This document shows, in pieces, positions 8,467 to 50,631 of a DNA stretch of 60,379 bases. Under the pieces are notes generated by a model, which worked only from the letters and a program-made list of their open reading frames with translations, was not told the DNA's origin and made no database searches. This DNA is from Sedimenticola thiotaurini. GTDB lineage: Bacteria > Pseudomonadota > Gammaproteobacteria > Chromatiales > Chromatiaceae. Both the position numbers and the translations under genes were made by a program. Each line of letters opens with the position of its first letter. Position 1 is the stretch's first letter. The stretch is from positions 1-60,379 of the forward strand of contig VMRY01000043.1 in the NCBI GenBank assembly GCA_007713595.1, given 5' to 3'.

Positions 8467-8491
8467 GGTGGATGCGCTACGCTTATCCACC
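8467..8491. repeat. REP-like palindrome
   Basis: GGTGGAT and ATCCACC flank GCGCTACGCTT. The phrase TGGATGCGCTACGCTTATCCACCCT is a common type of extragenic palindrome in proteobacteria (from general knowledge). It sits between the SDR gene and gcdH with a second palindrome at 8527-8609. Confidence 0.6.
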
Positions 8492-8526
8492 CTGCGTCTC
8501 TATCAATTGTTAAGTTGAACCATCAC

Positions 8527-8609
8527 GTAGGGTGGGCACGTCGTTCGCGCCCACCACTTTGTCCCGTGCCGCACCTTCTTGTGTGGGCAAAAAAGCGTGC
8601 CCACCCTAC
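8527..8609. repeat. Inverted repeat of GTAGGGTGGGCACG type
   Basis: GTAGGGTGGGCACG (8527-8540) and its exact reverse complement (8596-8609) enclose 55 bases that hold a further GCGCCCACC / GTGTGGGC pair. This is a REP or BIME-like extragenic element just downstream of the SDR stop, similar to 5531-5557. It may affect the amount of message reaching gcdH. Confidence 0.7.
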
Positions 8610-8613
8610 CGAG

Positions 8614-11539: not shown

Positions 11540-11541
11540 GT

Positions 11542-12861: not shown

Positions 12862-12872
12862 CTTTCGCCCCC

Positions 12873-14162: not shown

Positions 14163-14164
14163 GG

Positions 14165-15334: not shown

Positions 15335-15336
15335 AC

Positions 15337-16107: not shown

Positions 16108-16110
16108 GCT

Positions 16111-17247: not shown

Positions 17248-17259
17248 AATACGTCCCCT

Positions 17260-18541: not shown

Positions 18542-20299
18542 ATGAACGATATTGCATTCACTAGTAGTAGTAACGGCAAAGGCGCGCCTCGCTCACTCTC
18601 CATTGCCATGCTTGGCAGCGGTGGATCAGGCGTTATGACAGCAGGTGGACAACTACTGGATGCAGCGGGCCAAGCCGGTTGGTACGGCATGATGACCCGC
18701 TCCTCTGGCCCGCAGATTCGTGGTGGAGAAGCGGCTGCGCTGCTACGTCTTTCGCCTCAACCGGTGGAAACACATAAGGGACGTTTTGATATATTGCTGG
18801 CCATCGACTGGCTGAATGCCGATCGGTTTGTTGGCGAAATCATTCTGGATGAGAAGAGTATTGTTATTGGTGATACCGGCGGAACGGTACCCGACGCCAT
18901 CAGTAACATGGGTGGTCGCTATGTCGAGATCCCTCTGAGCGAACTGGCCAAAGGTATCAGCGGTGGCCGACCCAATATGGTAGCACTGGGCGCCTTGGCC
19001 CAACTGATAGGACTACCAATCAGCGCATTGGAAGTCGTGCTGACCAAATCATTAAAGAAAAAGGGTCAGGAAGCGATTGAAGCCAGCATCGCTGGTATCA
19101 ACGCGGGGGCTGCACAGGCCTCTGAGATACCCGATATCCCGGACTTTTCTGTCACCCCCTCCCCTGAACGGGAACGTTGGAGCATTACCGGTAATGAAGC
19201 GGCCGGCTTGGGCGCTATTCGCGGCGGTGTCCGTTTTGTTGCGGCCTACCCCATCACCCCCGGCACAGAGATCCTTGAGTGGCTGGCACCTAATCTGAAA
19301 AAAGTGGGTGGTGTTCTGGTACAGGCGGAAGATGAACTGGCCTCAATCAATCAGCTGATTGGCGGATCATTTGGTGGCACACCTTCCCTCACGGCCACCT
19401 CAGGGCCGGGTCTTGCTCTGATGATTGAATCTATCGGGCTTGCGGTTGCTTCAGAAACCCCTGTAGTCGTGGTGGATGTAATGCGCGGCGGCCCCTCTAC
19501 AGGTATACCAACAAAATCAGAACAGAGTGATCTCAACATTGCCATCTATGGTCTGCATGGCGATGCGCCCCACATTGTGGTGGCACCCATGTCGATCGGT
19601 GACTGTCTGTTTACCACGCAATGGGCAACCCATCTGGCTGAGACGCTACAAACTGCCTCCATTGTGCTTTCTGATCAATCCCTGGGACAGACCCGTGCAT
19701 TGATCGAGCGCCCTGCCGATATCGCTTTTGTTTCGGGCGGTCGTACGATCACCAGCAAATCAGAGGATTATCGCCGCTATGTGGTTAATGACTCCGGCGT
19801 TTCCCCGATGTCGATCCCAGGCACACCGGGCTGCCAATACACTGCAGATGGTCTGGAACATTCACCAACCGGCACACCATCGAGTCGTGCGGAAGATCAC
19901 ATCCAGCAATTGAACAAGCGCAAACGCAAACTGGATCAGTTTGACTACGGCGATCATTGGGCCCGCACAGAGGGTGAGGGAGAGATAGCTGTACTCACCT
20001 GGGGCTCCAGTACTGGGGCTGTCAGTGAAGCCATAGCAATGCTGGAAGCAGAAGGTCATAAGATCAGATTGATCAGTATGCGTCTGTTGCTTCCTGCACA
20101 ACCTGAACGTTTGGCCGCTGCCCTGTCCGGCGTGGAGAGAATACTGATTGTCGAGCAGTGCCACGGCGCGCAGTTCTACCATTATCTACGGGCACACTAT
20201 GACCTGCCGGGAGAGATTCGATCAATGGCCGTCCCCGGCCCCTTGATGATCCGCCCAGATGATGTCTACAGCGAACTTAAAGCGTGGGAGAACGAATAA
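18542..20299 (+). CDS. korA: 2-oxoacid:ferredoxin oxidoreductase, gamma-alpha fusion
   Basis: A 585-residue subunit in which a gamma domain (about residues 18-190, with GSGGSGVMTAGG and SSGPQIRGGEAA) precedes the alpha or pyrimidine-binding domain (from about 215, AAYPITPGTEILEWLA, TATSGPGLALM, GPSTGIPTKSEQSDL). This is the two-gene KorAB layout of Thauera, where 2-oxoglutarate:ferredoxin oxidoreductase recharges the ferredoxin that drives benzoyl-CoA reductase. It is transcribed away from had-bcr from a shared regulatory region. A second copy lies at 48900-50630. Substrate 2-oxoglutarate is inferred from the neighbours; a different 2-oxoacid cannot be excluded. Confidence 0.88.
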   Translation: MNDIAFTSSSNGKGAPRSLSIAMLGSGGSGVMTAGGQLLDAAGQAGWYGMMTRSSGPQIRGGEAAALLRLSPQPVETHKGRFDILLAIDWLNADRFVGEIILDEKSIVIGDTGGTVPDAISNMGGRYVEIPLSELAKGISGGRPNMVALGALAQLIGLPISALEVVLTKSLKKKGQEAIEASIAGINAGAAQASEIPDIPDFSVTPSPERERWSITGNEAAGLGAIRGGVRFVAAYPITPGTEILEWLAPNLKKVGGVLVQAEDELASINQLIGGSFGGTPSLTATSGPGLALMIESIGLAVASETPVVVVDVMRGGPSTGIPTKSEQSDLNIAIYGLHGDAPHIVVAPMSIGDCLFTTQWATHLAETLQTASIVLSDQSLGQTRALIERPADIAFVSGGRTITSKSEDYRRYVVNDSGVSPMSIPGTPGCQYTADGLEHSPTGTPSSRAEDHIQQLNKRKRKLDQFDYGDHWARTEGEGEIAVLTWGSSTGAVSEAIAMLEAEGHKIRLISMRLLLPAQPERLAAALSGVERILIVEQCHGAQFYHYLRAHYDLPGEIRSMAVPGPLMIRPDDVYSELKAWENE

Positions 20300-21138
20300 T
20301 GGAAACAGCTACCCAGTGTCCCAGCCTGAAACCAAAAGATTACAAGTCTGGCACCAAGCCTGTATGGTGCCCTGGCTGCGGTGATTACAGCGTCCTGCTT
20401 GCCATCACAAAAGCGATGGCAGAGATGAATCTTGCACCTGAGAATGTCGCTCTTGTATCAGGCATTGGTTGCTCGTCACGTCTGCCAGCTTATCTCAATG
20501 TCTATGGGTTTCATGCGGTACACGGACGCGCCCTGCCAGTAGCAACTGGTCTGAAGGTCTCGCGCCCAGATCTAACCGTCCTTGCTGCAGGTGGCGATGG
20601 TGATGGCTTCTCCATTGGCGGCAATCATTTTATGCATGCCTGCCGACGCAATGTAGACATGACCTACATCGTCATGGATAACCAGGTTTATGGCATGACC
20701 AAAGGCCAGGCCTCCCCCACAACTGATCCCGACTGGGATAAGAGCAAGCTCACCCCAGGTGGCACGAAGATCAATCCCTACTACCCACTGGTGGTTGCAC
20801 TGGCATCCGGCGCAAACTTTATTGCCCGAGCATCGAGCACCGATCCCAATGGAGCAGCTAAAGTACTGGTAGACGCCATCAAACATCCCGGCTTTTCATT
20901 TGTGCATATGTTAAGCCCCTGCGTCACCTTCCGCCCGGAGCAGAAAGATTGGAAAAAGATGGTACGTTCAGCACCTGTTGACCCAACGACTGATCCGGCG
21001 GTTGCTGCAAAGCGTCTAATGACTGATGACAACTTTTTCCTTGGCACACTCTACAAAGGTGATCGCGCTCCCTATCAACCGGAGCTGAAGACAACCATCG
21101 AAAACATCTCAGAACTCGACAGAGGATTCATCCTGTGA
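20299..21138 (+). CDS. korB: 2-oxoacid:ferredoxin oxidoreductase beta subunit
   Basis: The thiamine diphosphate-binding beta subunit, 279 residues from the ATG that overlaps the korA stop (TAATG). The cluster and TPP motifs are visible: WCPGCGDYSVL near residue 25, SGIGCSSRLP, the GDGDGFSIGGNHFMHACRRN block with its Mg-binding residues and VMDNQVYGMTKGQASPT. Works with KorA in the cytosol, oxidatively decarboxylating the 2-oxoacid with ferredoxin as acceptor. A longer reading from 20284 adds five residues without a better ribosome site. Confidence 0.92.
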   Translation: METATQCPSLKPKDYKSGTKPVWCPGCGDYSVLLAITKAMAEMNLAPENVALVSGIGCSSRLPAYLNVYGFHAVHGRALPVATGLKVSRPDLTVLAAGGDGDGFSIGGNHFMHACRRNVDMTYIVMDNQVYGMTKGQASPTTDPDWDKSKLTPGGTKINPYYPLVVALASGANFIARASSTDPNGAAKVLVDAIKHPGFSFVHMLSPCVTFRPEQKDWKKMVRSAPVDPTTDPAVAAKRLMTDDNFFLGTLYKGDRAPYQPELKTTIENISELDRGFIL

Positions 21139-22309: not shown

Positions 22310-25045
22310 ATGAGCCAGAATTCACCCACAGGTAATACCAAGATCCCGACATACTGTTACCAGTGTGTTGCGGGACCTGATCTACTCAATGTCCGAGTAG
22401 AAGATGGCATCGCTACTGAAGTACAACCAAACTTTGGCGCAGCAGATTGCACACCTGCCGGCGGCAAAGTCTGTGTTAAGGCTTTCGGGTTGATTCAAAA
22501 GGTTTACAACCCGCATCGTATTCTTACGCCGATGAAGCGCACCAATCCGAAAAAAGGGCGTAACGAAGACCCAAAGTTTGTCCCGATCAGTTGGGATGAA
22601 GCACTCGATACGATCGCGGAGAAGGTCAACAAAATTCAGGCTGAGGGAAAGATTGACGAAGCGGGTTATCCCCGCGTCGCTGCCAGTTTTGGTGGCGGCG
22701 GTACGTCAACCTATTACATGGGTACCTTCCCGGCATTCCTGAGTACGCTCACTCCCATCGACATGGGTTTTGGTAGCGGCCAGGGTGTCAAGTGTTACCA
22801 CTCTGAACATCTGTATGGAGAGCTCTGGCATCGTGCCTTTATTGTGGCTCCAGACACACCCAAATGTGATTACATTATCTCCTTCGGAATGAATATCGAA
22901 GCTTCAGGCGGCGTGTGCGGTGTTCGTCGTCATGCCGATGCACGCGATCGTGGTGTGAAGCGAATTCAGATTGAACCACATCTTTCCCAGACAGGTGCAG
23001 CCTCTGCAGAATGGGTACCGATCAAACCAAAAACTGACCCGGCATTTATGTACGCACTGATTCATGTGCTATTGCATGAACAACGCGACCGACTGGACAA
23101 AGTGTTTTTGCGGGATCGTACGGGATCACCCTATCTGGTGGCACCAAATGGCTTCTATCTGCGCGATCCTGAAACAAAGAAACCACTGGTCTATGACCTG
23201 AAGAGCAAGCAAGCTGTACCCTTTGATACTGCTGATATTGAACCAGCGCTGGAGGGTCAGTTTGTCTTGAGCGGCATCGAACTCGGTGCCGATAATGATA
23301 AGTGGGAACACCACGACATCAAGGTTACCACTGCGTTTGAAAAACTGATTGAACACATGAAGCCGTTCACCCCGTTGTGGGCAGCGCGTGTCTGCGACGT
23401 GGATAACAAGATTATTCGTCGCATCGCACTGGAGTATCTGGACCACGCCAAGGTGGGTGAGACCATTGAGGTCGATGGTCGTACCATGCCGTTACGCCCG
23501 GTGGCCGTAACCTTGGGCAAAACCGTAAACAATGGTTGGGGCGGTTATCACTGCTGCTGGGCCCGGACCATGCTGGCAGTTCTCGTCGGCGCACTGGAAG
23601 TACCTGGTGGCACCATTGGCACCACGGTGCGTATTAATCGTCCAGCCTCAGATCGCAATGACAGCGTCAAACTTTCAGAAGATGGTTTTCTCGCCTACCC
23701 GATGAATCCAACCGACAAAGAGAACTGGCTGGCTAAACCAGATGTGCGCAACGCTAACCGCACCCTGATACCACTGGTCGGCAACTCGGCCTGGAGTCAG
23801 GCACTGGGTCCTACCCACCTTGCCTGGATGCAGCAGGATAAAGGCCCCGATCACTGGCCACAGGCCACCAAGCCTGATCTGTGGTTTGTCTACCGCACCA
23901 ACCCGGCGGTCTCCTTCTGGGATACCAACCAGATCACCAATACCATTGCCACTTTTCCGTTTACGGTCTGTTTCGCCTACACCCGTGACGAAACCAATCA
24001 CATGGCTGATATCCTGCTTCCCGACAGAACTGATCTTGAAGGACTACAACTGATCCGGGTCGGTGGAACCAAGTTTATCGAGCAGTTCTGGGATCACCAG
24101 GGATTTGCCCTGCGTCAGCCTGTGACAGAGCCCCAGGGTGATACCCGCGACTTTACCTGGATCAGTACCGAACTCGCGAAACGCTGCAATGTACTGGAAC
24201 AGTACAACAAGGCGCTCAACCGCGGGGCAGCGGGTGTTGCACTAAAAACAGACAAGTACGACTTCAGCCTCGACATCACAAAAGAGCATGATGTTGAGAC
24301 TATCTGGGACGCCAACTGCAAGGCCGCCAGCGCAGAGATTACTGGTGGAAAAGAGCAACAGGGACTGGAGTATTACAAAGAAAAAGGCTATCGACTGACC
24401 GATTTCCCGCGCATCAAATGGTACCTCACCGCCAAGATGGAAGATGAGGGGGTTCGTTATGAACTGCCCTATCAAGAGACCCTGAAACGGGTCGGTGTCC
24501 AGTTGGGCAGACGTCTGCATGAGAAAGGCATCAGCTGGTGGGATGAGCAGCTCGAGGAGTATGAAGCACTGCCTGACATGATGGATTTTCAGGCCCTCTG
24601 GGAGGGTGCTCTGGAACGTAATTTCGGCGTCGATATCAGTGACTATCCCTTCTGGTTGGTCACTTCCCGCAGTATGCAGTACGCCTGGGGCGGCAACGTC
24701 TCCATCCAGATGATTCGTGAAGTCTCAAAGAATATTGGTACACACGGCGGACTGGTAATGAACACCGGCAGGGCCCACAAGATGGGACTGAAAGACGGCG
24801 ACCGGGTAGAGATCACCTCACCGCTCAGTGCCACCCGCGGCATCCTGGTGACCCGCGAGGGTATCCGACCTGACACCCTGATGCTGATGGGCCAGTTCGA
24901 CCACTGGGCCACCCCCTTTGCCAAAGATTTTGATGTGCCAAGCATGAACGCACTGGTACCCATGCTATTGGATCTGACGGATTCAAGTGGTTCAGGTGCA
25001 GACTTGGCCAGAGTAAAGATCAAGAAGATTGGAGATGCCAAATGA
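22310..25045 (+). CDS. padB: Phenylacetyl-CoA:acceptor oxidoreductase, Mo subunit
   Basis: A 911-residue molybdopterin oxidoreductase of the DMSO-reductase family. The N terminus holds an iron-sulfur site (CYQCVAG at residues 16-22, then GGKVCVKAFG), followed by FGGGGTSTYYMG, the cofactor-binding middle (SFGMNIEASGGVCGVRRHAD, QIEPHLSQTGA) and the C-terminal GRAHKMGLKDGDRVEI beta-barrel typical of the family. Best match by length and context is PadB of Thauera/Azoarcus, which converts phenylacetyl-CoA to phenylglyoxylate with quinone as acceptor. No Tat signal is seen, so the active site faces the cytoplasm. The stop overlaps the padC start (ATGA). Confidence 0.92.
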   Translation: MSQNSPTGNTKIPTYCYQCVAGPDLLNVRVEDGIATEVQPNFGAADCTPAGGKVCVKAFGLIQKVYNPHRILTPMKRTNPKKGRNEDPKFVPISWDEALDTIAEKVNKIQAEGKIDEAGYPRVAASFGGGGTSTYYMGTFPAFLSTLTPIDMGFGSGQGVKCYHSEHLYGELWHRAFIVAPDTPKCDYIISFGMNIEASGGVCGVRRHADARDRGVKRIQIEPHLSQTGAASAEWVPIKPKTDPAFMYALIHVLLHEQRDRLDKVFLRDRTGSPYLVAPNGFYLRDPETKKPLVYDLKSKQAVPFDTADIEPALEGQFVLSGIELGADNDKWEHHDIKVTTAFEKLIEHMKPFTPLWAARVCDVDNKIIRRIALEYLDHAKVGETIEVDGRTMPLRPVAVTLGKTVNNGWGGYHCCWARTMLAVLVGALEVPGGTIGTTVRINRPASDRNDSVKLSEDGFLAYPMNPTDKENWLAKPDVRNANRTLIPLVGNSAWSQALGPTHLAWMQQDKGPDHWPQATKPDLWFVYRTNPAVSFWDTNQITNTIATFPFTVCFAYTRDETNHMADILLPDRTDLEGLQLIRVGGTKFIEQFWDHQGFALRQPVTEPQGDTRDFTWISTELAKRCNVLEQYNKALNRGAAGVALKTDKYDFSLDITKEHDVETIWDANCKAASAEITGGKEQQGLEYYKEKGYRLTDFPRIKWYLTAKMEDEGVRYELPYQETLKRVGVQLGRRLHEKGISWWDEQLEEYEALPDMMDFQALWEGALERNFGVDISDYPFWLVTSRSMQYAWGGNVSIQMIREVSKNIGTHGGLVMNTGRAHKMGLKDGDRVEITSPLSATRGILVTREGIRPDTLMLMGQFDHWATPFAKDFDVPSMNALVPMLLDLTDSSGSGADLARVKIKKIGDAK

Positions 25046-25695
25046 CCCGCTATGTAATGGTCGCTGACATCAACCGTTGCGTCGGTTGCCAGACCTGCAC
25101 AGCCGCCTGCAAACACACCAATGCCACTGCACCCGGCGTGCAGTGGCGCAAGGTACTGGATTTTGAAGTCGGTACTTACCCCAATGTGCAGCGTGCATTT
25201 ATCCCGGTTGGTTGCAATCACTGTCTGGAAGCCCCCTGTGCCGATGTCTGCCCGACTTTGGCCACCTATAAGCGCCCCGATGGCATTGTCTCGATCAATT
25301 ATGATCTCTGCATTGGTTGTGCCTACTGCATTCAGGCCTGCCCTTATCAGGCGCGGGATCGGGTGGATATACCGAATAAGGCCTACGGCAAAGAGTTCGG
25401 CCAGATGAAGCATGAACAGAAAGTGCCGCACTCGGAACGCAGAGCCGTGGCGCAGAAGTGCACCTTCTGCTCTGACCGCATCGACTACGGCACCGCCAAC
25501 GGCCTGACACCCGGCATTGATCCTGATGCCACACCGGCCTGCGCCAACTCCTGTATTGCCAACGCGCTGACCTTCGGTGACATTGATGATCCCAACAGCA
25601 ATGTCTCTGAACTGCTGCGCACACATGAGCACTTCCAGATGCACGAAGAGCTGGAAACCGGCTCGGGCTTCTACTATCTATGGGAGCGTAAATAA
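25042..25695 (+). CDS. padC: Phenylacetyl-CoA oxidoreductase, 4[4Fe-4S] subunit
   Basis: A 217-residue DmsB/NrfC-type electron-transfer protein with four cluster motifs in order: CVGCQTCTAACK (residue 12 onward), CNHCLEAPCADVCP, CIGCAYCIQACP and CTFCSDR with later CANSCIANAL. It carries electrons from the Mo subunit PadB to the membrane subunit PadD. Its ATG overlaps the padB stop by four bases and its stop overlaps the padD start (TAATG). Confidence 0.92.
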   Translation: MTRYVMVADINRCVGCQTCTAACKHTNATAPGVQWRKVLDFEVGTYPNVQRAFIPVGCNHCLEAPCADVCPTLATYKRPDGIVSINYDLCIGCAYCIQACPYQARDRVDIPNKAYGKEFGQMKHEQKVPHSERRAVAQKCTFCSDRIDYGTANGLTPGIDPDATPACANSCIANALTFGDIDDPNSNVSELLRTHEHFQMHEELETGSGFYYLWERK

Positions 25696-26579
25696 TGTTG
25701 GGTCCAACTTTGCAAAAACGCTGGGACTGGCGAGCAGCAGGTAACTTCATCTGTGGCGGCACCGGGACCGGACTGATGATCCTGGCGGCCACGCTCTCTG
25801 CCATGGGACTCGCTACTACCAATTATGCCCTGCTAGCCAGCTTATTCGTTGCAGCGGGCTTGGGACTGGTCTGGCTTGAGATTGGCCGGCCCCTTCGCTC
25901 AATGAACGTGTTCCGTAACCCTGCCACCTCCTGGATGACACGGGAAGGCATGGTGGCCCTGCTATTGATACCCATGGGGATACTCACTTTCTTTATTGAG
26001 TCAAACTCACTGCTGGTATTAACGGCGCTGCCTGCTGCCTTCTTCCTGTTTGCCCAGGCCCGCATACTGCATATGGCAAAGGGTATCCCGGCCTGGCGTA
26101 CGCATGCCATCAATCCAATGATCCTGACAACGGGTCTTGTTGAAGGGATGGGGGTACTGCTGATCCTGACCGGTCTCATCAGCGGCAACATCGAGGCGTT
26201 CTTCAAAGGCTACGGCTGGATAGTTGCGCTGTCACTGGTTTTCCTGCGTGGCGTCGCCTGGCTGAACTACCGCTACTCCCTCTCCAACAATGCACCGGAA
26301 CAGACCCTCAGAGTGCTGGAGCGGTCCAATATCGTCATTGTTCTGCTGGGCTTCGCAACACCCATCGTGTTGCTGTTCATGGGCAAGCAGTATGCAGTCT
26401 ATCAGTTAGGGCTGGCTGCTGCAGCCGGTGCTTTCATGCTATTCACAGGCTGGTTCCTAAAATACCAGATCATCATCTACGCCGCCTATTACCAGGGCTT
26501 TGCCATCACACACACACCCGCTCGCGGTGCTGGCAAACCCGGCCCCGGGCTGAAGCCTGGCTGGAGATTACCGCAATGA
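25695..26579 (+). CDS. padD: Phenylacetyl-CoA oxidoreductase, membrane subunit
   Basis: A 294-residue DmsC/NrfD-like integral membrane protein with about eight hydrophobic helices (for example TGLMILAATLSAMGLA, GLVWLEIGRPLRSMN, MVALLLIPMGILTFFIE, IVIVLLGFATPIVLLFMG). The RPLRSMNVFRNPATSWMTRE segment after the second helix is typical of the family. It anchors PadBC and passes electrons to the quinone pool. The stop overlaps the padE start. Confidence 0.9.
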   Translation: MLGPTLQKRWDWRAAGNFICGGTGTGLMILAATLSAMGLATTNYALLASLFVAAGLGLVWLEIGRPLRSMNVFRNPATSWMTREGMVALLLIPMGILTFFIESNSLLVLTALPAAFFLFAQARILHMAKGIPAWRTHAINPMILTTGLVEGMGVLLILTGLISGNIEAFFKGYGWIVALSLVFLRGVAWLNYRYSLSNNAPEQTLRVLERSNIVIVLLGFATPIVLLFMGKQYAVYQLGLAAAAGAFMLFTGWFLKYQIIIYAAYYQGFAITHTPARGAGKPGPGLKPGWRLPQ

Positions 26580-27175
26580 CAACTGCCGTAGCACAAAAGA
26601 CAACTCACGAAGTACGACTGCATGGCCGTGGCGGTCAGGGTGCCGTGCTGGCATCAAAGATACTCGCCAAGGCCATCGCCATGAGCGGTCTGTACGTGAC
26701 GGCCATTCCCGCCTTTGGCTTTGAAAGACGTGGCGCACCGGTTGCGGCATTCATGCGTTACTCGGAAAAACCACTACGGGCCGTCACCAATATTTATGAT
26801 CCCGATTACATCATCTGTATCGATCCCAGCATTCCAAAAGCGGTGGATATTTTTGCCGGTGTTCAGCCCAACAGCACTTTGATTCAGGCCACCCGACATG
26901 CGGTGGAATCACTCAACTGTCCTGGGGACATCAGCACAGTCGTGCTATGCGATGCTGTCAAAATCGGCATGGAAGTGTTCAGGCGCCCCATCACCAACAC
27001 CATCATGCTGGGTGCATTTGCCCGGGCAACCGGCATCATCACCATGGATGAGTTACGTGCCGGACTGGAGTCCGCCAATTTCCGCGATGCCGGCCTGGAA
27101 CAGAACCTGATCGCAGTTGAACGCGGTTATAACGAAGCGATTATTAAACAGCGACAAGGAGACGTGTGGGTATGA
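26576..27175 (+). CDS. padE: Phenylglyoxylate dehydrogenase gamma subunit
   Basis: A 199-residue POR/KOR gamma-domain protein with the GRGGQGAVLASKILAKA loop near residue 15 and the PAFGFERRGAPVAAFMRYS segment. In Azoarcus, PadEFGHI form phenylglyoxylate:NAD (or acceptor) oxidoreductase, which converts phenylglyoxylate, CoA and NAD to benzoyl-CoA, CO2 and NADH. Here the gamma subunit is separate, in contrast to the gamma-alpha fusion of KorA in this window. Starts inside the padD stop. Confidence 0.92.
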   Translation: MTTAVAQKTTHEVRLHGRGGQGAVLASKILAKAIAMSGLYVTAIPAFGFERRGAPVAAFMRYSEKPLRAVTNIYDPDYIICIDPSIPKAVDIFAGVQPNSTLIQATRHAVESLNCPGDISTVVLCDAVKIGMEVFRRPITNTIMLGAFARATGIITMDELRAGLESANFRDAGLEQNLIAVERGYNEAIIKQRQGDVWV

Positions 27176-27465
27176 GTAAGATGAAGGCCCATCCACGACC
27201 CGATATGAGTCAGGTGCCGGACAATCTCTGTCCGATAGCCACAATTGAAAATCCCATGCTGCCTGGTGACTGGCGCGCTGAGCGCCCTATTGTCGACCGA
27301 GCCAAGTGTGTCAAGTGTGGCATCTGCTGGATCTTCTGTCCGGTACAGTGCATCGTCGAAAAACGCGCCTGGTTTGATGTCAACTACGACACCTGCAAGG
27401 GTTGCGGCATCTGCGCTGTAGAGTGCCCGCAGAATGCCATCAAGATGATAGAGGAGGTCAAATAA
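27172..27465 (+). CDS. padF: Phenylglyoxylate dehydrogenase delta (ferredoxin) subunit
   Basis: A 97-residue protein with two [4Fe-4S] motifs, CVKCGICWIFCP and CKGCGICAVECP, about residues 43 and 73, as in pyruvate oxidoreductase delta subunits. The ATG at 27172 overlaps the padE stop (ATGA) and is preceded by AAGGAG at ten bases; a GTG two codons upstream is the alternative. The stop overlaps the padG start as TAATG. Confidence 0.92.
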   Translation: MSKMKAHPRPDMSQVPDNLCPIATIENPMLPGDWRAERPIVDRAKCVKCGICWIFCPVQCIVEKRAWFDVNYDTCKGCGICAVECPQNAIKMIEEVK

Positions 27466-28706
27466 TGGCCAGCCCCGCACTAAAAACCACCCACCCTGGA
27501 TGCGCGCAATCTATTGTCTGTGACGGCAATGAAGCGGCTGCCTGGGCCGTCGCCCTGGCTCGTCCAGACGTTGTGGCTGTCTATCCGATCACCCCACAAT
27601 CATCACTGGTTGAATATGTCTCACAGTTTATTGCCGATGGAAAAATCCAGGCGGAGCTGATGAATGTGGAAGGCGAGCACAGTGTGCTCTCCGCCCTGCA
27701 TGGTGCCGCACTGGCCGGCGGGCGTACCTATACCGCTACCTGCGGTCCCGGCCTCGCCTTCATGTTTGAACCCTACTGGCGAACACCTGGCATGCGACTA
27801 CCGATTGTTGCCTCACTGGTTACCCGTGACGGCATCACCCCACAGTGTGTCTGGGGCGGTCAGCAGGACGCCATGACCATGAAGGAGACCGGCTGGATTC
27901 AGATCTATTGCGAGACCGTACAAGAGGTACTGGATACCACCATCATGGCCTACCGAATTGCGGAACACCACGATGTGATGCTGCCGGTCAATATCTGTCA
28001 CGATGGTAACTACCTCTCTTACGGTGTCACTCAGGTGGATGTCCCGGAACAGCAGGCGGTCGACGATTATCTCGGTGAAAAAAATATCAACTGGCATGTG
28101 GCGCTTGATCCATTGCGACCCATGGCGGTTGATCCACTAACCGGCGGTTCCGGTGGCACTGGACCGAGTAAATTTGTCGCCTACCGGAAAGGACTTTGTG
28201 AAGGCATGCAAAATTCCCTTCGGGTAATCGAAGAGGCGCATCGCGAGTGGGGTGAGATCTTCGGCCGTGACTATGCACCCCTGGTTGAAGAGTACCGCCT
28301 GGATGATGCGGACTACGCCCTGATCACCATTGGCTCGATGACCGGTGCTGCCAAGGATGCCATTGATACCGCCCGCGAACGCGGTGAGAAAGTAGGACTG
28401 ATCAAGATAAAGACCTTCCGGCCCTTCCCGATAGAGGCGATGACGCGCGCCCTATCAAAAGTACAGGCTGTTGGTGTTGTTGATCGTTCTGTTCACTACG
28501 GCTGGAACTGTGGGCCGCTCTATCAGGAGGTAATGAGCTGCCTCTATCGAACCGGAAAACAGATCACCGCCAGACCCTTTATCGGCGGACTCGCCGGTGC
28601 TGATCTGACCGAATCACACTTTGCCAAGGCGATTCAGGCCACCGCCACCATGTGGGCCGATGAGACAGCCATCGATAGCCCGATCTGGCTTAATGAGAAT
28701 GACTGA
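27465..28706 (+). CDS. padG: Phenylglyoxylate dehydrogenase alpha subunit
   Basis: A 413-residue POR alpha-type subunit. Family motifs are YPITPQSSLVEYVSQFIADG (residues 40-59), EGEHSVLSALHGAALAG and TCGPGLAFMFEPYW; the C-terminal part holds GSMTGAAKDAIDTARERG. It pairs with the beta subunit PadI for the thiamine diphosphate chemistry. ATG at 27465 is preceded by GAGGAGG; the frame is open upstream but overlaps padF. Confidence 0.92.
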   Translation: MASPALKTTHPGCAQSIVCDGNEAAAWAVALARPDVVAVYPITPQSSLVEYVSQFIADGKIQAELMNVEGEHSVLSALHGAALAGGRTYTATCGPGLAFMFEPYWRTPGMRLPIVASLVTRDGITPQCVWGGQQDAMTMKETGWIQIYCETVQEVLDTTIMAYRIAEHHDVMLPVNICHDGNYLSYGVTQVDVPEQQAVDDYLGEKNINWHVALDPLRPMAVDPLTGGSGGTGPSKFVAYRKGLCEGMQNSLRVIEEAHREWGEIFGRDYAPLVEEYRLDDADYALITIGSMTGAAKDAIDTARERGEKVGLIKIKTFRPFPIEAMTRALSKVQAVGVVDRSVHYGWNCGPLYQEVMSCLYRTGKQITARPFIGGLAGADLTESHFAKAIQATATMWADETAIDSPIWLNEND

Positions 28707-28716
28707 GGAACGCCTG

Positions 28717-29970
28717 ATGAACCAGACACATTATCTCATCGCCGGCGCCAGCCATGCTGGACTGGAAGCAGTACACAGGATTCGCCTGGTGGATGAGACA
28801 TCATCAATCACTGTCGTCACCCGTGACGCACAACTCCCCTACTCGCCAACCATTCTGCCCTATGTAGTTTCCGGGCAAAGCGAGCCAAATCGAGTGGTGC
28901 TTCGTAATGCCGATTATTTCAAATCGCAAGACGTTAACCTGATCACCGGTAACGAACTGATCGCGATTAATGAAGCAGACCAAAAGGTCACACTGAAATC
29001 CGGGGAAGAGTGGCACTACGAGAAACTGCTGCTGGCCACGGGTGCCGATCCAATCATTCCACCCATACCAGGACTAGCTGAAACACCATTTCATGTCCTG
29101 CGTACCATGCAGGATGCGGTTAACCTGCGCACCCATGCCGGAAATGCCAAAACCGCCATTGTACTGGGTGCCGGCCTGATCGGTATGCACGGTGCGGAGA
29201 ACCTGCGTCACGCCGGACTGGATGTGACGATTGTTGAGATGTGCGATCAGGTACTGCCTGGCTATTTCGATACTCAGGCCGCTTCCGTTATCCAGAGCGC
29301 ATTCAACAGCAATGGCATTCACATGTTAATGGGCAGTGGCGTGATCAAGGTTGAGAGCCTGGATAGCGGTTGTCAGGCCACTCTTGAGAATGGCCAGACC
29401 GTGCAAGCTGATCTACTGTTGGTGGCAACCGGCGTAAAACCAAAACTGGACTATCTGAGCGGCACATCAATTCAGACCGACCAGGGCATACTGGTAGATC
29501 GCACCATGCGCACGGATGCCATCAATATCTGGGCCGCCGGTGACGTCGCCCAAGCCGCTGATTTCTACAAGGATGAACAGGTGATGATGGGCATTCTGCC
29601 CAATGCGGTTACCCAGGGTGCTATCGCTGCCATGGATATGACAGAGGATGAAGCGCTGCAACCCTACAGTGGCGGTGTACCCATCAATACCTATACCTTC
29701 TTTGGACAGCAGGCGATCTCCGTTGGCCAGTCTGTGGCGGGTGAACAGATCGAAACCCTGAGCCGGGTCGATGACGCAAATCAGCGCTATCTGAAGATCC
29801 TTCTAAAAGACAATCAACTGCAGGGTATCTCCAGCATTAACGAGGAGATGGATGCCGGCATCATGTGGCAACTGATCCTGCGCAAGATTGATCTTACACC
29901 AGTAAAAGACGCCTTTATCGCTCAGCCGCTAGAGACTGGCCGCGCCCTCATGTCCAGCACCTGGCGATAA
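28717..29970 (+). CDS. padH: Phenylglyoxylate dehydrogenase epsilon (FAD/NADH) subunit
   Basis: A 417-residue FAD-dependent pyridine nucleotide-disulfide oxidoreductase-like subunit. It shows an N-terminal FAD fold (LIAGASHAGLEAVHRIRLVD), LLLATGADPIIP, the NAD-binding loop VLGAGLIGMHGAENLRHAG and the second FAD motif WAAGDVAQAADFY. It takes electrons from the core enzyme and reduces NAD. ATG at 28717 (TGAGGAACGCCTG upstream) fits both the ribosome site and the fold; ten bases separate it from padG. Confidence 0.92.
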   Translation: MNQTHYLIAGASHAGLEAVHRIRLVDETSSITVVTRDAQLPYSPTILPYVVSGQSEPNRVVLRNADYFKSQDVNLITGNELIAINEADQKVTLKSGEEWHYEKLLLATGADPIIPPIPGLAETPFHVLRTMQDAVNLRTHAGNAKTAIVLGAGLIGMHGAENLRHAGLDVTIVEMCDQVLPGYFDTQAASVIQSAFNSNGIHMLMGSGVIKVESLDSGCQATLENGQTVQADLLLVATGVKPKLDYLSGTSIQTDQGILVDRTMRTDAINIWAAGDVAQAADFYKDEQVMMGILPNAVTQGAIAAMDMTEDEALQPYSGGVPINTYTFFGQQAISVGQSVAGEQIETLSRVDDANQRYLKILLKDNQLQGISSINEEMDAGIMWQLILRKIDLTPVKDAFIAQPLETGRALMSSTWR

Positions 29971-29985
29971 CGGGAGAACAGATTA

Positions 29986-31317
29986 ATGACTGCCTATAAT
30001 ACGATCGCCTTTGATCCATCACGCTGTGAAAGCTGCAACGACTGTGACGCCTGCATCACGGCCTGTTCACAAATCAAGTCCGGCACAGATGATCCACTGC
30101 ATTCACGTATCAAGATAGTTGCCGGACTAAACGGCAACCTTCCCGAACTGGCACTCTGTCGTCAGTGTGGTGACCCGGAATGTACCAAGAGCTGCCCCTC
30201 AACGGCACTGACCAAGAACGAACAGACGGGCATTATCGACTGGGACAAGAGTCTCTGTATCGACTGCCTGCTCTGTACCGTCGGTTGTACCTATGGCGGC
30301 ATCACCTACAACATGACACTGAAGCACGTTGCCAAGTGTGATATGTGTGATGGCGACCCGGCCTGTGTCAAGGCCTGCCCCACTGGCGCGCTGACTTACA
30401 TCACCTCTGCCAGCATTTTCAATGAACAGCATGAGCGGGAAGACCTGTTCGTTCCCGGTCTCTCTGCATGCCAGGGTTGCAACTCGGAAATGATCATGCG
30501 CCACTCACTGCGTAAGGTGGGACCGGATACCGTACTGGCCACACCGCCTGGTTGTATCCCCGGCATGGGCTCGGTTGGTTTCAATGGTACAACGGGCACC
30601 AAGGTTCCCGTGTTCCATCCACTGCTGACCAACACAGCATCAATGCTGGCTGGATTGAAAAAACAGTACAACCGTATGGGCCGCAAAGTGACGGCAATGG
30701 CGCTCGCCGGTGATGGTGGTGCAGGCGATGTCGGCTTCCAGTCACTCTCCGGTGCCGCTGAACGCAACGAGCAGATGCTGTTTATCGTGGTCGACAACGA
30801 AGGCTACATGAACACCGGCATGCAGGCATCTGGCAGTACCTCGTACGGTTCCTGGACGACCACCACACCGGTCGGAACAGAGATGAAGGGTAAGCGTACC
30901 AACCAGAAAAATCTCGCCATGATCATGATGAACCATAACTGCGAGTATGTGGCGACAGCCTCCACCGCCTTTGTTGAAGATTACTATGAGAAGCTCGACA
31001 AGGCACTGGAAGCGTCAGAGCGTGGTTTTGCCTATCTGCATATCTACTCGCCCTGCCCAACCGGCTGGCGCTTCCCCTCATCACAAACGATTGAGGTGTG
31101 TCGCAAGGGCGTGGAGACAAACTTTGCTCCCTTATGGGAGTACGAGCGAGGCGGTGAACTGCGCTTCACTCATTCGATCGATAATCCACTACCGGTAGAG
31201 GCCTATCTGAATCTCAGTGGCAAATACCGTCATGTCAATGAACAGCAGCTGGAACATATCCAGCAAGAGGTAAACGATCGGGTAAAAATCCTGAAACGAT
31301 TTGCCGGAATGCATTAA
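29986..31317 (+). CDS. padI: Phenylglyoxylate dehydrogenase beta subunit, ferredoxin-TPP fusion
   Basis: A 443-residue two-part subunit. Residues 10-135 hold four Cys groups (CESCNDCDACITAC, CRQCGDPECTKSCP, CIDCLLCTVGC, CDMCDGDPACVKACP) like a polyferredoxin; the rest is the POR/KOR beta domain with CQGCNSEMIMRHSL, PPGCIPGMG, the TPP motif GDGGAGDVGFQSLSGAAERN and VVDNEGYMNTG. The polyferredoxin would carry electrons from the TPP site to PadF/PadH. ATG with GGGAG upstream, 15 bases after padH. Confidence 0.92.
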   Translation: MTAYNTIAFDPSRCESCNDCDACITACSQIKSGTDDPLHSRIKIVAGLNGNLPELALCRQCGDPECTKSCPSTALTKNEQTGIIDWDKSLCIDCLLCTVGCTYGGITYNMTLKHVAKCDMCDGDPACVKACPTGALTYITSASIFNEQHEREDLFVPGLSACQGCNSEMIMRHSLRKVGPDTVLATPPGCIPGMGSVGFNGTTGTKVPVFHPLLTNTASMLAGLKKQYNRMGRKVTAMALAGDGGAGDVGFQSLSGAAERNEQMLFIVVDNEGYMNTGMQASGSTSYGSWTTTTPVGTEMKGKRTNQKNLAMIMMNHNCEYVATASTAFVEDYYEKLDKALEASERGFAYLHIYSPCPTGWRFPSSQTIEVCRKGVETNFAPLWEYERGGELRFTHSIDNPLPVEAYLNLSGKYRHVNEQQLEHIQQEVNDRVKILKRFAGMH

Positions 31318-31341
31318 AAAAACCAGGAGGAGTGTGACACC

Positions 31342-32652
31342 ATGTCTAATACAGGTGCCGATAATTACTATTTTGACGCTGAAGCGGAGTGCATGCCCCG
31401 CGGGCAACTGTTGCAACTGCAACTACAACGACTGAAGAAAATCCTTCAGCATGCTTATGAAAATGTTCCACACTACCGTGAGGCATTTGATAAACAGGGT
31501 GTAAAACCGGAGCAGCTCGAGTCACTGGAAGATCTGGCGAAGTTCCCCTTCACAATCAAGAACGATCTGCGGGATGCCTATCCCTTTAACATGTTCGCCG
31601 TGCCACGGGAGCAGATCTCACGCCTGCACGCCTCTTCTGGCACCACCGGCAAACCGACTGTGGTTGGCTATACTGATGGTGATATCAACAACTGGGCCAA
31701 TCTGATGGCACGCAGTATCTCCTGTGCCGGCGCCCGCCCTGGTGACATCGTGCACAACGCCTATGGCTATGGTCTGTTTACCGGTGGACTGGGTGCCCAT
31801 TACGGCGCCGAGCGACTGAAGTGCACCGTCACCCCTATGTCAGGCGGGAATACTGAAAAGCAGATTGCAGTGATGAGCGACTTTGGCTCCCACGTACTGC
31901 TCTCCACCCCCTCCTACGCCCTCAATATTGCCGAAGTGGCCAGGAGTGAAGGCGTGGATCTGGCGGCCGGACCACTGCGCGTCGGCATATTCGGTGCCGA
32001 GCCCTGGAGCGACGAGATTCGTGGCGAGCTGGAGAAACAGCTTGGCGTGAAGGCGATGGATATCTATGGCCTGTCCGAGATTATGGGTCCGGGCGTGGCC
32101 TGCGAATGCACCAAGCAGAACGGCCTGCACGGCTGGGAAGATCACTTCCTGTTCGAGATCGTCGATCCCGATACCCTGGAGCCGCTACCCTATGGCGAGG
32201 TGGGCGAACTGGTGATCACCACCCTGACCAAGGAGGCGCTGCCGATCATTCGCTACCGCACTCACGACATCACCAAACTGACAGACGAGACCTGCAGCTG
32301 CGGCCGCTCCCATGTGCGCATCCTGCGCGTAACCGGTCGTAACGATGACATGATGATTATTCGTGGTGTCAATGTTTATCCCTCACAGATTGAGTCTGTT
32401 CTGGTCAGCATTGAAGGCGTTGCCCCCCATTATCAGTTAGTGATCAAACGTGAAGGTGTGCTGGATACACTGACCGTTGATATTGAAGCGGAGCCCGAGT
32501 TCACTGGCGATCGCAATGCCCTGGGAGCAGAAGTAAAGCACCACATCAAGTCACTGATCGGTGTCACCTGTACAGTCAATGTCCTGGGTACCGGTGAAAT
32601 ACCCCGCTCACAAGGCAAGGCGGTTCGGGTCAAAGATCTGCGGAAAAAATAA
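31342..32652 (+). CDS. padJ: Phenylacetate-CoA ligase
   Basis: A 436-residue AMP-forming aryl-CoA ligase of the PaaK family. Motifs: the phosphate loop SSGTTGKPTVVGYT, YGLSEIMGPGV, YRTHDITKL, the RNDDMMIIRGVNVYP hinge and the catalytic Lys region SQGKAVRVKDL at the C terminus. It activates phenylacetate for PadBCD. AGGAGGAG precedes the ATG, 24 bases after padI. In an anaerobic operon PadJ is the correct assignment; the aerobic PaaK paralogue cannot be told apart by sequence alone. Confidence 0.93.
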   Translation: MSNTGADNYYFDAEAECMPRGQLLQLQLQRLKKILQHAYENVPHYREAFDKQGVKPEQLESLEDLAKFPFTIKNDLRDAYPFNMFAVPREQISRLHASSGTTGKPTVVGYTDGDINNWANLMARSISCAGARPGDIVHNAYGYGLFTGGLGAHYGAERLKCTVTPMSGGNTEKQIAVMSDFGSHVLLSTPSYALNIAEVARSEGVDLAAGPLRVGIFGAEPWSDEIRGELEKQLGVKAMDIYGLSEIMGPGVACECTKQNGLHGWEDHFLFEIVDPDTLEPLPYGEVGELVITTLTKEALPIIRYRTHDITKLTDETCSCGRSHVRILRVTGRNDDMMIIRGVNVYPSQIESVLVSIEGVAPHYQLVIKREGVLDTLTVDIEAEPEFTGDRNALGAEVKHHIKSLIGVTCTVNVLGTGEIPRSQGKAVRVKDLRKK

Positions 32653-33003: not shown

Positions 33004-35328
33004 ATGAATACCCAAGATCGCGTCAATGCACTGCTCCAACGTATGCATGACACACCACAGTATCCTACTCAGGGCGCGGTCCTGTTTGTCAATCTTACCG
33101 ATCGCACACATCAGAAGGCCTACCTGCCGAAAGAGGTGCTTACCACCTTCCTCAGCGGCCGTGGCGCCAACATGTACCTGCTCTACAATCTGCTCGCTAC
33201 CGAGAAGATGGAGGCACTGGATACAGAGGTACCGCTGATCTTTGGTAATGGCGTGTTTACCGGCTACATGGCCTCTGCCACCCGTGGTAATGTGACCAGC
33301 CTGTCGCCCGAGAGTGATGCCATTCTCGACAGTAATGCGGGCGATTATTTTCCTGCCTTCATGAAACATCACGGTTATGAGCATATTGTCCTGTACGGAC
33401 GCAATCCACAATGGACCCTGCTCAAGATCGCCTTTGATGAGATCAAATTCCTTGATGCCTCGCCCTATCTCGGCCTCAACAATCTGGACGTCACAGAAGC
33501 GATTGAGCGTGACTTTGAACGCACCGAACGCAAGGACATGGCACTGGCACGCATTACCAGCGCAGGAGAAAACCTCGCCCTCAGCGCCGGTATCATGGGT
33601 GGCATCAAGGCGATCTGGGCACGGGGTGGCGCCGGCGCCAAGATGGGTTCACTCGGGCTGAAGGCGATCATGATAGATGGCGCACCCGGCAGGGTTGTTA
33701 CCAGCAAAGAGTTTAAACTGGGCAATAAAGAGATCAGTAACAAGGTCATCAGCACCAGTGTTATACGTAATGCATTAAAGACTGTCGGCACGCCGTTCCT
33801 CTATAAACCAAGTCGCATCCTCGGTGCCATTGGCACCAAAAATAATCAGGAGAACACCTGGGTTGAGGATCTTGATGCAGATAACTTCGATGTCTATCGC
33901 ACCGGCATGGATGGCTGCTACAAATGCCCGGTGAAATGTCGCCCCCTGAATGATATGACACCGGGTGCCGAAGGGGGCTTTGGTGCCAATGCCCTGAAAG
34001 GTGTCAAAGGCAATGCCAGTTATGACACGACGCAGGCAGAAGTTCAGCATGAACATAGCGCCAGCTACCAGGGCATCAAGGGTGATGGCATCTTCGATAA
34101 ATATGACAAGGGCGATGGCCCCGAGTATGTCACTGTCGGCAAGTTTGGCCCCAACATTGGTATCACCGCACCGGAACAGGTACTGCGACTTAACAATATT
34201 CTGAACGATCTTGGCTTTGACTCCTCCGGAGCTGGTGGCGCAATTGGCTGGGCCATGGAGTTGTACCAACGCGGCATTATTGATCAGCAGACTACCGGCG
34301 GACTGGATCTCAGCTGGGGCAACTATGACGCCGTTGAAAAGCTACTGTTCATGATGGCCAAGCGGGAAGGATTTGGTGATGTGGTCGCCGACTCTGGCCA
34401 GGCCGTTGCCACCGGCAAATATCCCAGGGAAGCACTTGATTATCGTATGACAGTCAAGGGGCTGTTTCAATCCGACCCCCACGACAGTCGCATCCTTAAG
34501 GCATTTGCCTTGGGACTGGCGGTCGCAACCCGTGGCATGGATCACCTGCGTAATCGGGTGACCCTGGAAATCAACGCCCGTATTAACGATGACGCCGAGT
34601 TCAAGGCCGAACTGTATGGCGGCAAGGTATCTGCCGAGCCCAATGCTTACGGCGGCAAAGAGTTTGCCGTGCGCCGCTGTGAAGACACCTTTGCCGTGGG
34701 CGATTCCGTCGGCATGTGTCGCTTTACTACCAAGCTATTCAACTCACCCTCGCTTACCGGTACAGATGAGTTTTCCACACAACTCAAACTGCTGACCGAG
34801 ATCGACATGAGCAGTGACGATCTGCTCAATGCCGGACGCAATATTATCGCCCTGGAGCGCATGATCAATGCCCACCGGGGACTCACGGCGGCCGATGATA
34901 CGTTACCGAAACGCTGGTTCGAGGAACCCAATACAGCCGGACCCTTTACCGGCGAGAAGATTGATCAAGCAGAATTTGAAGAGCTGAAGCAGCGCTTCTA
35001 TGAGGTCTCTGGTTTTGAACGAGACGGATTGCCGAATAGTGATTGGTGGAATGATCTTTCAGAAGTCATCACTGGCTACCACTTGAAGGTGAATCTGCCA
35101 AAACTGCCTGGCGTATCCCGCAACAGCCTGATTCTGAACCGGCCGGTAAAAGATATTGCAGAACTGCGCCGACAACTTATCACCGCCCTGCCACAAGCCG
35201 CAGAGGCCCTGAACGACAGTGCGCTGGGTATAGCGATCAACGATCATCTACTGGTCGCCACAGAAATGGGGCAGACCCTGAACAGTGGCGACGAGATCAG
35301 TCTCGTGCCAATGCTGGCAGGAGGGTAG
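33004..35328 (+). CDS. Aldehyde:ferredoxin oxidoreductase with C-terminal MoaD domain
   Basis: A 774-residue tungsten/molybdenum aldehyde:ferredoxin oxidoreductase. The AOR part (residues 20-690) has the [4Fe-4S] ligands C305, C308, C312 (CYKCPVKC) and a fourth Cys near 572 (SVGMC), plus GGIKAIWARGGAGAKMGS. Residues about 695-774 form a MoaD/ThiS-like beta-grasp domain: INDHLLVATEMGQTL, SGDEISLVP, ending exactly in GG as a sulfur carrier needs. MoaD-like proteins supply sulfur for molybdopterin. ATG at 33004 is set by AGAGGA seven bases upstream. Phenylacetaldehyde is the likely substrate, by position after padJ and by analogy with the Aromatoleum AOR. No separate AorA/AorC-type subunits are nearby. 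Confidence 0.9.
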   Translation: MNTQDRVNALLQRMHDTPQYPTQGAVLFVNLTDRTHQKAYLPKEVLTTFLSGRGANMYLLYNLLATEKMEALDTEVPLIFGNGVFTGYMASATRGNVTSLSPESDAILDSNAGDYFPAFMKHHGYEHIVLYGRNPQWTLLKIAFDEIKFLDASPYLGLNNLDVTEAIERDFERTERKDMALARITSAGENLALSAGIMGGIKAIWARGGAGAKMGSLGLKAIMIDGAPGRVVTSKEFKLGNKEISNKVISTSVIRNALKTVGTPFLYKPSRILGAIGTKNNQENTWVEDLDADNFDVYRTGMDGCYKCPVKCRPLNDMTPGAEGGFGANALKGVKGNASYDTTQAEVQHEHSASYQGIKGDGIFDKYDKGDGPEYVTVGKFGPNIGITAPEQVLRLNNILNDLGFDSSGAGGAIGWAMELYQRGIIDQQTTGGLDLSWGNYDAVEKLLFMMAKREGFGDVVADSGQAVATGKYPREALDYRMTVKGLFQSDPHDSRILKAFALGLAVATRGMDHLRNRVTLEINARINDDAEFKAELYGGKVSAEPNAYGGKEFAVRRCEDTFAVGDSVGMCRFTTKLFNSPSLTGTDEFSTQLKLLTEIDMSSDDLLNAGRNIIALERMINAHRGLTAADDTLPKRWFEEPNTAGPFTGEKIDQAEFEELKQRFYEVSGFERDGLPNSDWWNDLSEVITGYHLKVNLPKLPGVSRNSLILNRPVKDIAELRRQLITALPQAAEALNDSALGIAINDHLLVATEMGQTLNSGDEISLVPMLAGG

Positions 35329-35418: not shown

Positions 35419-36312
35419 ATGACTGAGACCATTAACGCCACTATCGGCGGCGAGATGACCATTGAGCAACTGACCGAAGAGGTCGGCTCACGGGTTCGTT
35501 CGGTCCGGTCACGGCGCGGCCTGACGCGGAAAAACCTCGCTTTTCACTCGGATGTCTCAGAGCGTTACCTGGCCCAACTGGAGCGTGGCACCGCCAATGT
35601 CTCACTGGCCCTGCTGTCGCGGATCGCCAAGGCACTCGGGGTACGCATTGGCTCCCTGCTGCCGGAACAGGAAGAGAGTTGTATCAAGTATCCCCCACTG
35701 GGCGAGTTGATCGAGACCTTTCCCGCAGAGACCCAGGAGAAGGCCTATCAGCTACTTCGTGGCGCCTTCTCACAAGGTCAGGGGGCTTACCGGGGTGTGG
35801 CGCTGATTGGTCTGCGGGGTGGCGGTAAAAGCACCCTGGGCGAACAGCTGGCCAAGCACTTCCAGGTGCCATTTATTCGCATGCAGAATGTAATTGCGCA
35901 ACTGGCCGGCATGGATATGGGCGAGCTGATCTCACTCACCGGACAGGGTAACTACCGGCGACTGGAACTTCAGGCACTGCAACGGACCATCACTGACTAC
36001 CGCCATGTGGTGATTGAGACCGGCGGTAGCCTGATCTCAGAAGCAGAGACCTATCGCATCCTGCGGGAGCACTTCTTTACCGTCTGGGTACGCGCACTGC
36101 CGGAAGATCACATGAACCGTGTCATTGAGCAAGGTGACATGCGACCCATGGCAGGTAACCAGCAGGCGATGGATGACCTGAAACTGATACTGACTGAACG
36201 TGAGACCGATTATCGACTGGCTGATTATCAGATAATGACATCAGGCCAGACCATTGAGCAGAGTCTTGAGACCCTGATCAAACAGTGCGCGCCCTACTTG
36301 CAGGGAAGTTAA
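35419..36312 (+). CDS. BzdR/BoxR-type regulator, HTH plus shikimate-kinase-like domain
   Basis: A 297-residue regulator of the BzdR family. Residues 18-72 are an XRE-type helix-turn-helix (RRGLTRKNLAFHSDVSERYL, then LLSRIAKALGV). Residues about 125-290 resemble shikimate kinase with a P-loop GLRGGGKSTLGEQL. In Azoarcus CIB, BzdR represses the benzoate operon until benzoyl-CoA binds the kinase-like domain; BoxR does so for the aerobic box route. Its place between the AOR and the lower-pathway genes makes it the candidate controller of the bcr, kor and pad promoters. Which promoters it binds is not shown by the sequence. Confidence 0.9.
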   Translation: MTETINATIGGEMTIEQLTEEVGSRVRSVRSRRGLTRKNLAFHSDVSERYLAQLERGTANVSLALLSRIAKALGVRIGSLLPEQEESCIKYPPLGELIETFPAETQEKAYQLLRGAFSQGQGAYRGVALIGLRGGGKSTLGEQLAKHFQVPFIRMQNVIAQLAGMDMGELISLTGQGNYRRLELQALQRTITDYRHVVIETGGSLISEAETYRILREHFFTVWVRALPEDHMNRVIEQGDMRPMAGNQQAMDDLKLILTERETDYRLADYQIMTSGQTIEQSLETLIKQCAPYLQGS

Positions 36313-50630: not shown

Positions 50631-50631
50631 T

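Follow-up and report, generated by a model that had tools for sequence, protein, structure and literature searches.

A MoaD-type domain at the carboxyl terminus of an aldehyde:ferredoxin oxidoreductase-family protein of Sedimenticola thiotaurini and its association with benzoyl-CoA reductase

The linkage of aldehyde:ferredoxin oxidoreductase (AOR) with MoaD-like sulfur carriers has been described in several forms. An Azoarcus AOR carrying MoaD fused at its carboxyl terminus was already recorded by Iyer, Burroughs and Aravind in 2006, who also proposed that AOR-linked MoaD genes serve tungsten cofactor synthesis (PMC1779556). The Azoarcus fusion has the same domain order and the same fused end as the protein described here, so that the architecture as such is not new; the text and the table comment on it concern Azoarcus only and contain no clade, pathway link or active-site analysis (PMC1779556). 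Separate MoaD-like genes near AOR genes, cited as known in the preliminary description of our locus, are likewise a published pattern (PMC1779556) and occur in the S. thiotaurini genome itself, as well as in P. acidaminophilum, where an annotated MoaD lies beside AOR as a separate gene (locus L087). In the tungsten-dependent AorABC-DE system of Aromatoleum aromaticum (PMC6365974), and in the L077 operon of our own genome, the large subunit is linked to a MoaD-like protein, as it is here; in both of them, however, MoaD is a separate gene and Fe-S and FAD subunits are present, and the L077 AOR copy keeps Glu313 and Tyr427 (P. furiosus AOR numbering), unlike the fused clade. WorX, the MoaD/ThiS-like partner of single-subunit WOR found beside some Class I WORs, is encoded separately, no fusion to WOR being described there (PMC13328260). 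One Ubl of T. kodakarensis takes part in making the tungsten cofactor, and the archaeal Ubls of this organism are described as serving both sulfur transfer and conjugation (PMC11323500).

Two further members of the family invite comparison. The class II benzoyl-CoA reductase subunit BamB resembles the fused clade in belonging to the AOR/WOR family, in its benzoyl-CoA context and in being devoid of the AOR second-shell residues (PMC12096430); it differs in using a Cys ligand to W (Cys322), whereas in the fused clade no cysteine beyond the four Fe-S ones is conserved throughout, an indirect comparison that draws on conservation within the clade. The putative second W-protein of A. aromaticum, 'AOR1', which is also present in related bacteria (PMC12096430), is another second AOR-like protein of an aromatic-degrading denitrifier and, by analogy, may belong to the same clade as the fused protein; the word MoaD is absent from the main text of that paper. 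Beyond the architecture, the analysis brings out a tie to benzoyl-CoA reductase and changes in the active site, for which a literature search confined largely to freely accessible papers found no published statement; the fusion itself was found stated only in PMC1779556.

The window analysed here is a whole stretch of 60,379 nucleotides of S. thiotaurini DNA (contig VMRY01000043.1), in which the fusion gene (33004..35328, forward strand, as are all its features given below) forms an open frame of 774 codons plus stop. The mechanical ORF begins at 32926, and alignments with homologues begin from 33004. Pfam analysis revealed an AFOR_N domain at residues 25-226 (33076..33681; PF02730, E 1.2e-43) and the AFOR_C domains at residues 242-684 (33727..35055; PF01314, E 2.9e-90), the latter including cysteines 305, 308, 312 and 572, which we take to be Fe-S ligands from alignment with 1aor. 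Since the nine top rows of a Foldseek search with the whole model were also AOR/WOR structures, domains and fold both bear out the AOR-family body that had been proposed from the sequence. A short junction (residues 685-691, 35056..35076), gap-free in an alignment of 23 proteins, leads into a MoaD-type beta-grasp domain at residues 692-774 (35077..35325), recognised by Pfam, AlphaFold2 and Foldseek, and the last two codons (35320..35325) encode Gly-Gly.

Assignment of the tail relied on several kinds of search. The Pfam ThiS family (PF02597) matches residues 713-774; the match scored 20.7 bits (E 6.3e-4) in the whole protein, where the gathering score of 22.5 was not reached, 24.8 bits in a six-frame genome search and 25.6 bits (E 1.9e-5), above the gathering score, when the last 89 residues were searched alone. 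The NCBIfam and curated MoaD models TIGR01682, TIGR01687 and PRK11130 gave weak matches below their cut-offs, and phmmer against PDB sequences likewise returned only weak MoaD matches (best E 0.035). BLAST aligned the fused domain with the genome's own MoaD over the last 32 residues only (E 2e-4), and hhalign placed it about equally near to that MoaD (probability 90.6) and to the genome's AorD (86.8). The AlphaFold2 model of the whole chain, built on 22 aligned sequences, has a mean pLDDT of 76.4 and a pTM of 0.85, with pLDDT below 50 at residues 267-286, 299-354, 369-377 and 483-519. Its tail follows the beta-grasp order of strands and helices, with block pLDDT of 82-93 over residues 691-770, and the last four residues drop to pLDDT 49, as expected of a free tail. 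Directly after the nine AOR/WOR rows, Foldseek with the whole model listed MoaD of E. coli (1nvi_D; E 4.6e-3, TM normalised by target length 0.80) and of H. pylori (3rpf_C). With a model of the tail only (pLDDT 73.7, pTM 0.57), these two MoaD entries came first, with E 1.3e-4 for 1nvi_D. Domain search and structure prediction thus agree on the MoaD/ThiS-type domain suggested earlier, and the predicted fold of the tail is a beta-grasp of MoaD type. At the junction a predicted helix (679-689) leads, after four residues, into the first strand (694-697), which is modelled at high pLDDT; so short and gap-free a connection argues against the presence of a long cleavable linker.

A scan of genome contigs yielded 22 loci, comprising 17 of the fused group and five Chloroflexota relatives, and the whole-genome samples added more. 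Members of the fused group share at least 61% identity, and the next relatives among the loci compared are those of Chloroflexota, at 40-42% over the alignment. Altogether 28 loci lie at or above 61% identity, one of them (L028) being the window's own gene; the count covers the 25 that extend to the 3' end, with 23 distinct proteins among them, while L005 (part of the window's own gene) and L027 and L036 (both cut by contig ends) were left out of the 3'-end count. Every one of the 25 loci ends exactly in GG, as do all 24 loci and 22 distinct proteins that remain when the window's own is set aside. The free Gly-Gly at the stop codon, with nothing behind it, is therefore confirmed in 23/23 distinct proteins, and the view that the fusion is no frameshift has held, since all 24 other loci reaching the 3' end carry the domain as well. 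Taken together, the sequences support both the fusion and its conserved GG end well. Records of the fused group are labelled as Sedimenticola species and Motiliproteus, with further MAGs labelled Proteobacteria, Gammaproteobacteria, Betaproteobacteria, Rhodocyclaceae, Arenicellales and, in one case, Deltaproteobacteria. All 81 records from the plasmid collection fell below 60% identity, and the phylum sample gave a single genome of 398 at E 1e-100, which was our own.

Conservation was compared in 13 full-length proteins with pairwise identities below 80%. Column identity averages 0.78 over the body versus 0.59 over the domain; 231 of 665 body positions are invariant, as against five of 81 domain positions apart from the terminal two, and both terminal glycines are invariant. 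The chance of both last positions falling among the seven invariant ones of 83 is about 0.006, and the retention of GG while the rest of the domain drifts is not expected of a structural remnant. Among the loci compared, a search with a model of the fused domain found no AOR-length frame with such a domain outside the group. This model included the genome's own MoaD and AorD, which therefore match by construction, and missed the annotated P. acidaminophilum MoaD (L087); with this limited reach, it found no MoaD gene at E 0.01 beside the Chloroflexota relatives (L021-L025).

The body of the protein departs from described AORs in its active site. Cysteines 305, 308 and 312 are each present in 21/21 distinct proteins with a letter at the position and Cys572 in 23/23; with Cys559 found in 20/23, these four are the only cysteines kept without exception wherever a letter is aligned. 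For the known AORs, a 2025 review describes Glu313, His448 and Tyr427 as universally conserved, assigns Glu313 a role in proton transfer and mentions a change of Tyr to His in one known enzyme (PMC12096430). Alignment to P. furiosus AOR places Val376 (34129..34131) at the Glu313 site, His493 (34480..34482) at the Tyr427 site and Arg518 (34555..34557) at the Tyr452 site. Throughout the clade, the Glu313 site holds Val in 18, Ala in two and Thr in one of 21 distinct proteins, and the Tyr427 and Tyr452 sites hold His and Arg, respectively, in 23/23. Thr is kept at the Thr243 site (21/21) and His at the His448 site (23/23); Glu311 is retained wherever a distinct protein has a letter at its site, and Tyr312 in 19/21. 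The second shell of AOR sensu stricto (Thr243, Glu313, Tyr427, His448) is thus incomplete across the clade, Glu313 and Tyr427 both being replaced. The other two AorB proteins that this genome encodes have retained Glu and Tyr at these two sites, where the five relatives from Chloroflexota carry Ser and His. The name aldehyde:ferredoxin oxidoreductase, under which the gene had been introduced, is sound as far as family membership goes and doubtful as an enzyme name, because Glu313, Tyr427 and Tyr452 are replaced clade-wide. By domains and fold the body belongs to the AOR family, and by its aligned active-site residues it falls outside AOR sensu stricto, so the aldehyde name should be read as a family label only and would be better dropped.

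Just before the GPEY motif that holds the Glu313 site lies an insert of 53 residues (317-369, 33952..34110), defined by the alignments and mostly modelled at low confidence. Its length is 53 residues in 19 of the 21 distinct proteins holding the region, 50 in L015 and 38 in L009, and it is absent from the five Chloroflexota relatives; AlphaFold2 confidence is low around both the insert and the GPEY motif. The proteins of L013 and L016 deviate from the others in having Ala at the Glu313 site and Gly at the Tyr312 site, with AMP-binding proteins encoded nearby, and perhaps act on a different substrate.

The fusion gene is surrounded by genes of anaerobic aromatic catabolism. Benzoyl-CoA pathway genes occupy 10694..18333 on the reverse strand, where bcrA (11542), bcrB (12873) and bcrC (14165) match TIGR02259, TIGR02260 and TIGR02263 far above cut-off; the gene at 10694 is presumably bcrD, and we take further genes of this block to be of the ech/oah/had type. 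They are followed on the forward strand by a 2-oxoacid:acceptor oxidoreductase (18542..21138) whose alpha subunit exceeds the cut-off of TIGR03710, the korAB name and the beta subunit being our assumption, and by a padBCDEFGHI-padJ-type operon (22310..32652, forward strand), in which PadH and PadI match NF045765 and NF045766 above cut-off and the other pad names are assumed. The phenylacetate-CoA-ligase-like gene of this operon scores 606 bits with the PaaK model TIGR02155, without reaching its cut-off of 646. At 90 bases downstream of the fusion gene lies a regulator (35419..36312, forward strand) that matches NF006015, 'anaerobic benzoate catabolism transcriptional regulator', above cut-off and is presumably of the BzdR/BoxR type. 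As the neighbours are pad-type genes and this regulator, and not AorA- or AorC-type genes, the earlier observation that the cluster has no obvious extra AOR subunits stands. Encoded after korB (21135-21653) is a protein of 172 residues whose match to rubrerythrin slightly exceeds the cut-off, and directly before padB (21893-22297) a small protein with a match to the FlK thioesterase family. A second pair of ORFs that we take to be korAB-like lies away from the aromatic cluster at 48900-51474, and the window gave no Rfam match above gathering score.

Neighbourhoods were compared in 19 fused loci that have a flank of 6 kb or more (the window and 18 others), and the short contigs L006, L008, L019, L020 and L027 were left out of the tally; pad genes do lie beside the fusion in L027. 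Homologues of bcr, korAB, oah/had or pad genes were found near the fusion in 13 of the 19 loci, and no such pathway genes near it in the other six (L012, L013, L016, L119, L121, L124). L012 has thiolase, CoA-ligase and regulator homologues nearby, and AMP-binding proteins are encoded near the fusion in L012, L013 and L016. The korAB genes lie directly or one gene upstream of the fusion in L011, L026, L122 and L123, the intervening gene of L123 giving the rubrerythrin match of its window homologue after korB. In L011, L026 and L123 a homologue of that window gene separates korB from the fusion gene, and homologues of the small FlK-type protein occur in L009 and L014; in L014 an FdhD/NarQ-family gene (8465-9289) adjoins the padB homologue. 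The contig of L026, whose protein is identical to that of genome G093, starts inside a bcrA-like gene.

Co-occurrence was examined in a class sample of 369 and a family sample of 57 genomes, which share four genomes, make 422 in total and both include our own. The fused AOR is present in 10 of the 422 genomes, and all 10 possess benzoyl-CoA reductase, which was found in only two of the 412 genomes without the fused gene. In the class sample, BcrB (E 1e-60) occurred in 11 genomes, namely in 9/9 with the fused AOR and in 2/360 without it (G076 and G120), with a Fisher p-value of 1.7e-16, or 5.8e-15 without our own genome; these values are uncorrected for kinship, the nine genomes spanning seven families. 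The family sample gave both proteins in G000 and G415 only (2/2 versus 0/55). The gene of G211 was counted as fused, its contig end cutting it at residue 620, before the domain. The fused AOR and Bcr lie about 300 kb apart on one contig in G061 and G332, and on separate contigs or side by side in the other fused genomes, an arrangement that in drafts speaks neither for nor against linkage. The reductase of the fused genomes is of class I, and all 10 genomes contain a second AOR-family match. PadB was detected in eight of the 10 (our own and seven of nine others) and also in G120, which has Bcr without the fusion. A strict tie to the pad genes was considered and rejected, as G093 and G214 have no PadB though Bcr is present; PadB missing in these two fused genomes and present in G120 indicates that the fused gene is tied more closely to the benzoyl-CoA pathway than to pad. 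G371, a near-complete genome of the window genome's genus, has neither the fused AOR nor BcrB.

The genes needed for a sulfur-carrier function are present in the genome besides the fused domain. One MoaE match with an adjoining MoaD was found, together with one strong ThiF-family match of MoeB size, which we take to be MoeB, and two weaker ones over cut-off, the ThiF-family genes all lying on other contigs than the fusion. The genome also encodes one ThiS-like protein, as well as an aor operon with its own MoaD, beside which lies a PBP_like_2 binding protein that is presumably TupA-like. Two aorABC-type loci exist besides the fusion, L077 (3004-9388, contig C110) and L078 (3085-6871, contig C92), one of them with MoaD and transporter genes alongside, so the genome has at least three AOR-family enzymes. 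Of the nine other fused genomes, all but G087 gave a MoaE match, and in seven of these eight, G265 being the exception, a MoaD-family match lies next to it; our own included, MoaD adjoins MoaE in 8/9 MoaE-bearing fused genomes, and supply in cis is accordingly not needed for viability. The frame of this adjacent MoaD was seen to end in GG in five of the seven other genomes; the stretches from G214 and G211 did not show such an end. The idea that the fused domain is the only MoaD of the cell was rejected, given a separate MoaD beside the only MoaE and another in the aorABC-type operon, which makes the fused domain an extra MoaD. Also rejected was a second kind of fusion in G061, with MoaD on the FAD subunit of another AOR, the FAD protein and MoaD being separate adjacent frames. 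A 643-residue ThiS frame of G061 reads as a Ubl-rhodanese-E1 protein, its rhodanese and E1 parts being our assumption.

Our preferred interpretation, to which we give about an even chance, is that the protein is a paralogous AOR/WOR bis-metallopterin enzyme of anaerobic aromatic catabolism with its own MoaD on the chain, and that this carrier is probably still functional. MoeB of the cell would adenylate the free C-terminal glycine of the fused domain and a sulfurtransferase would convert it to the thiocarboxylate, after which the fused MoaD could dock its tail in MoaE and deliver sulfur for the metallopterin, so that the cofactor would be made next to its client apo-enzyme, with the MoaD domain staying attached afterwards. 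Such loading of the cofactor in cis is a plausible proposal. The mature enzyme, whichever metal it may bind, would probably exchange electrons with ferredoxin and act on an aromatic compound of the benzoyl-CoA or phenylacetyl-CoA pathways. A narrower proposal makes it a metallopterin enzyme dedicated to the class I benzoyl-CoA pathway, with an acid or CoA-ester and no free aldehyde as its substrate, which would produce its cofactor itself by means of a thiocarboxylated MoaD that stays attached for good; it draws on the invariant Arg and His in place of two active-site tyrosines and on the loss of the base Glu313, and we consider it unlikely in this full form.

Among the competing explanations, the one with most in its favour regards the MoaD domain as a fixed structural or assembly module that has ceased to carry sulfur and might, for instance, provide a surface on which MoaE, MoeA or an electron partner docks. 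The short, gap-free junction, the availability of other MoaD-family genes to serve the cofactor and the lower conservation of the domain relative to the body would all suit such a module, but it offers no obvious reason for GG exactly at the last codon in all 23 distinct proteins, and we hold it to be somewhat unlikely. That a protease frees MoaD after translation, the fusion only fixing the stoichiometry, would agree with the separate MoaD published beside AOR (PMC1779556) and seen in P. acidaminophilum and our own genome; the same short junction, where only four residues and no long loop separate the predicted helix from the first strand, makes such a polyprotein improbable. That the GG end serves conjugation, or sulfurates the metal site itself, in place of pterin synthesis has a precedent in the dual role of the T. 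kodakarensis Ubls (PMC11323500), and unusual metal chemistry would be conceivable with the altered second shell, yet the ThiF-family genes of the genome lie on other contigs and nothing else favours this highly improbable use. A frameshift or assembly artefact joining two genes has practically no likelihood left, as the same open frame recurs in 25/25 loci with a 3' end, from many assemblies and sampled genomes.

The fusion offers, in a single natural chain, a system in which possible channelling of cofactor sulfuration to a client enzyme can be studied. The company of benzoyl-CoA reductase in every sampled genome with the fusion, together with the missing catalytic residues, points to a redox step in anaerobic aromatic degradation.
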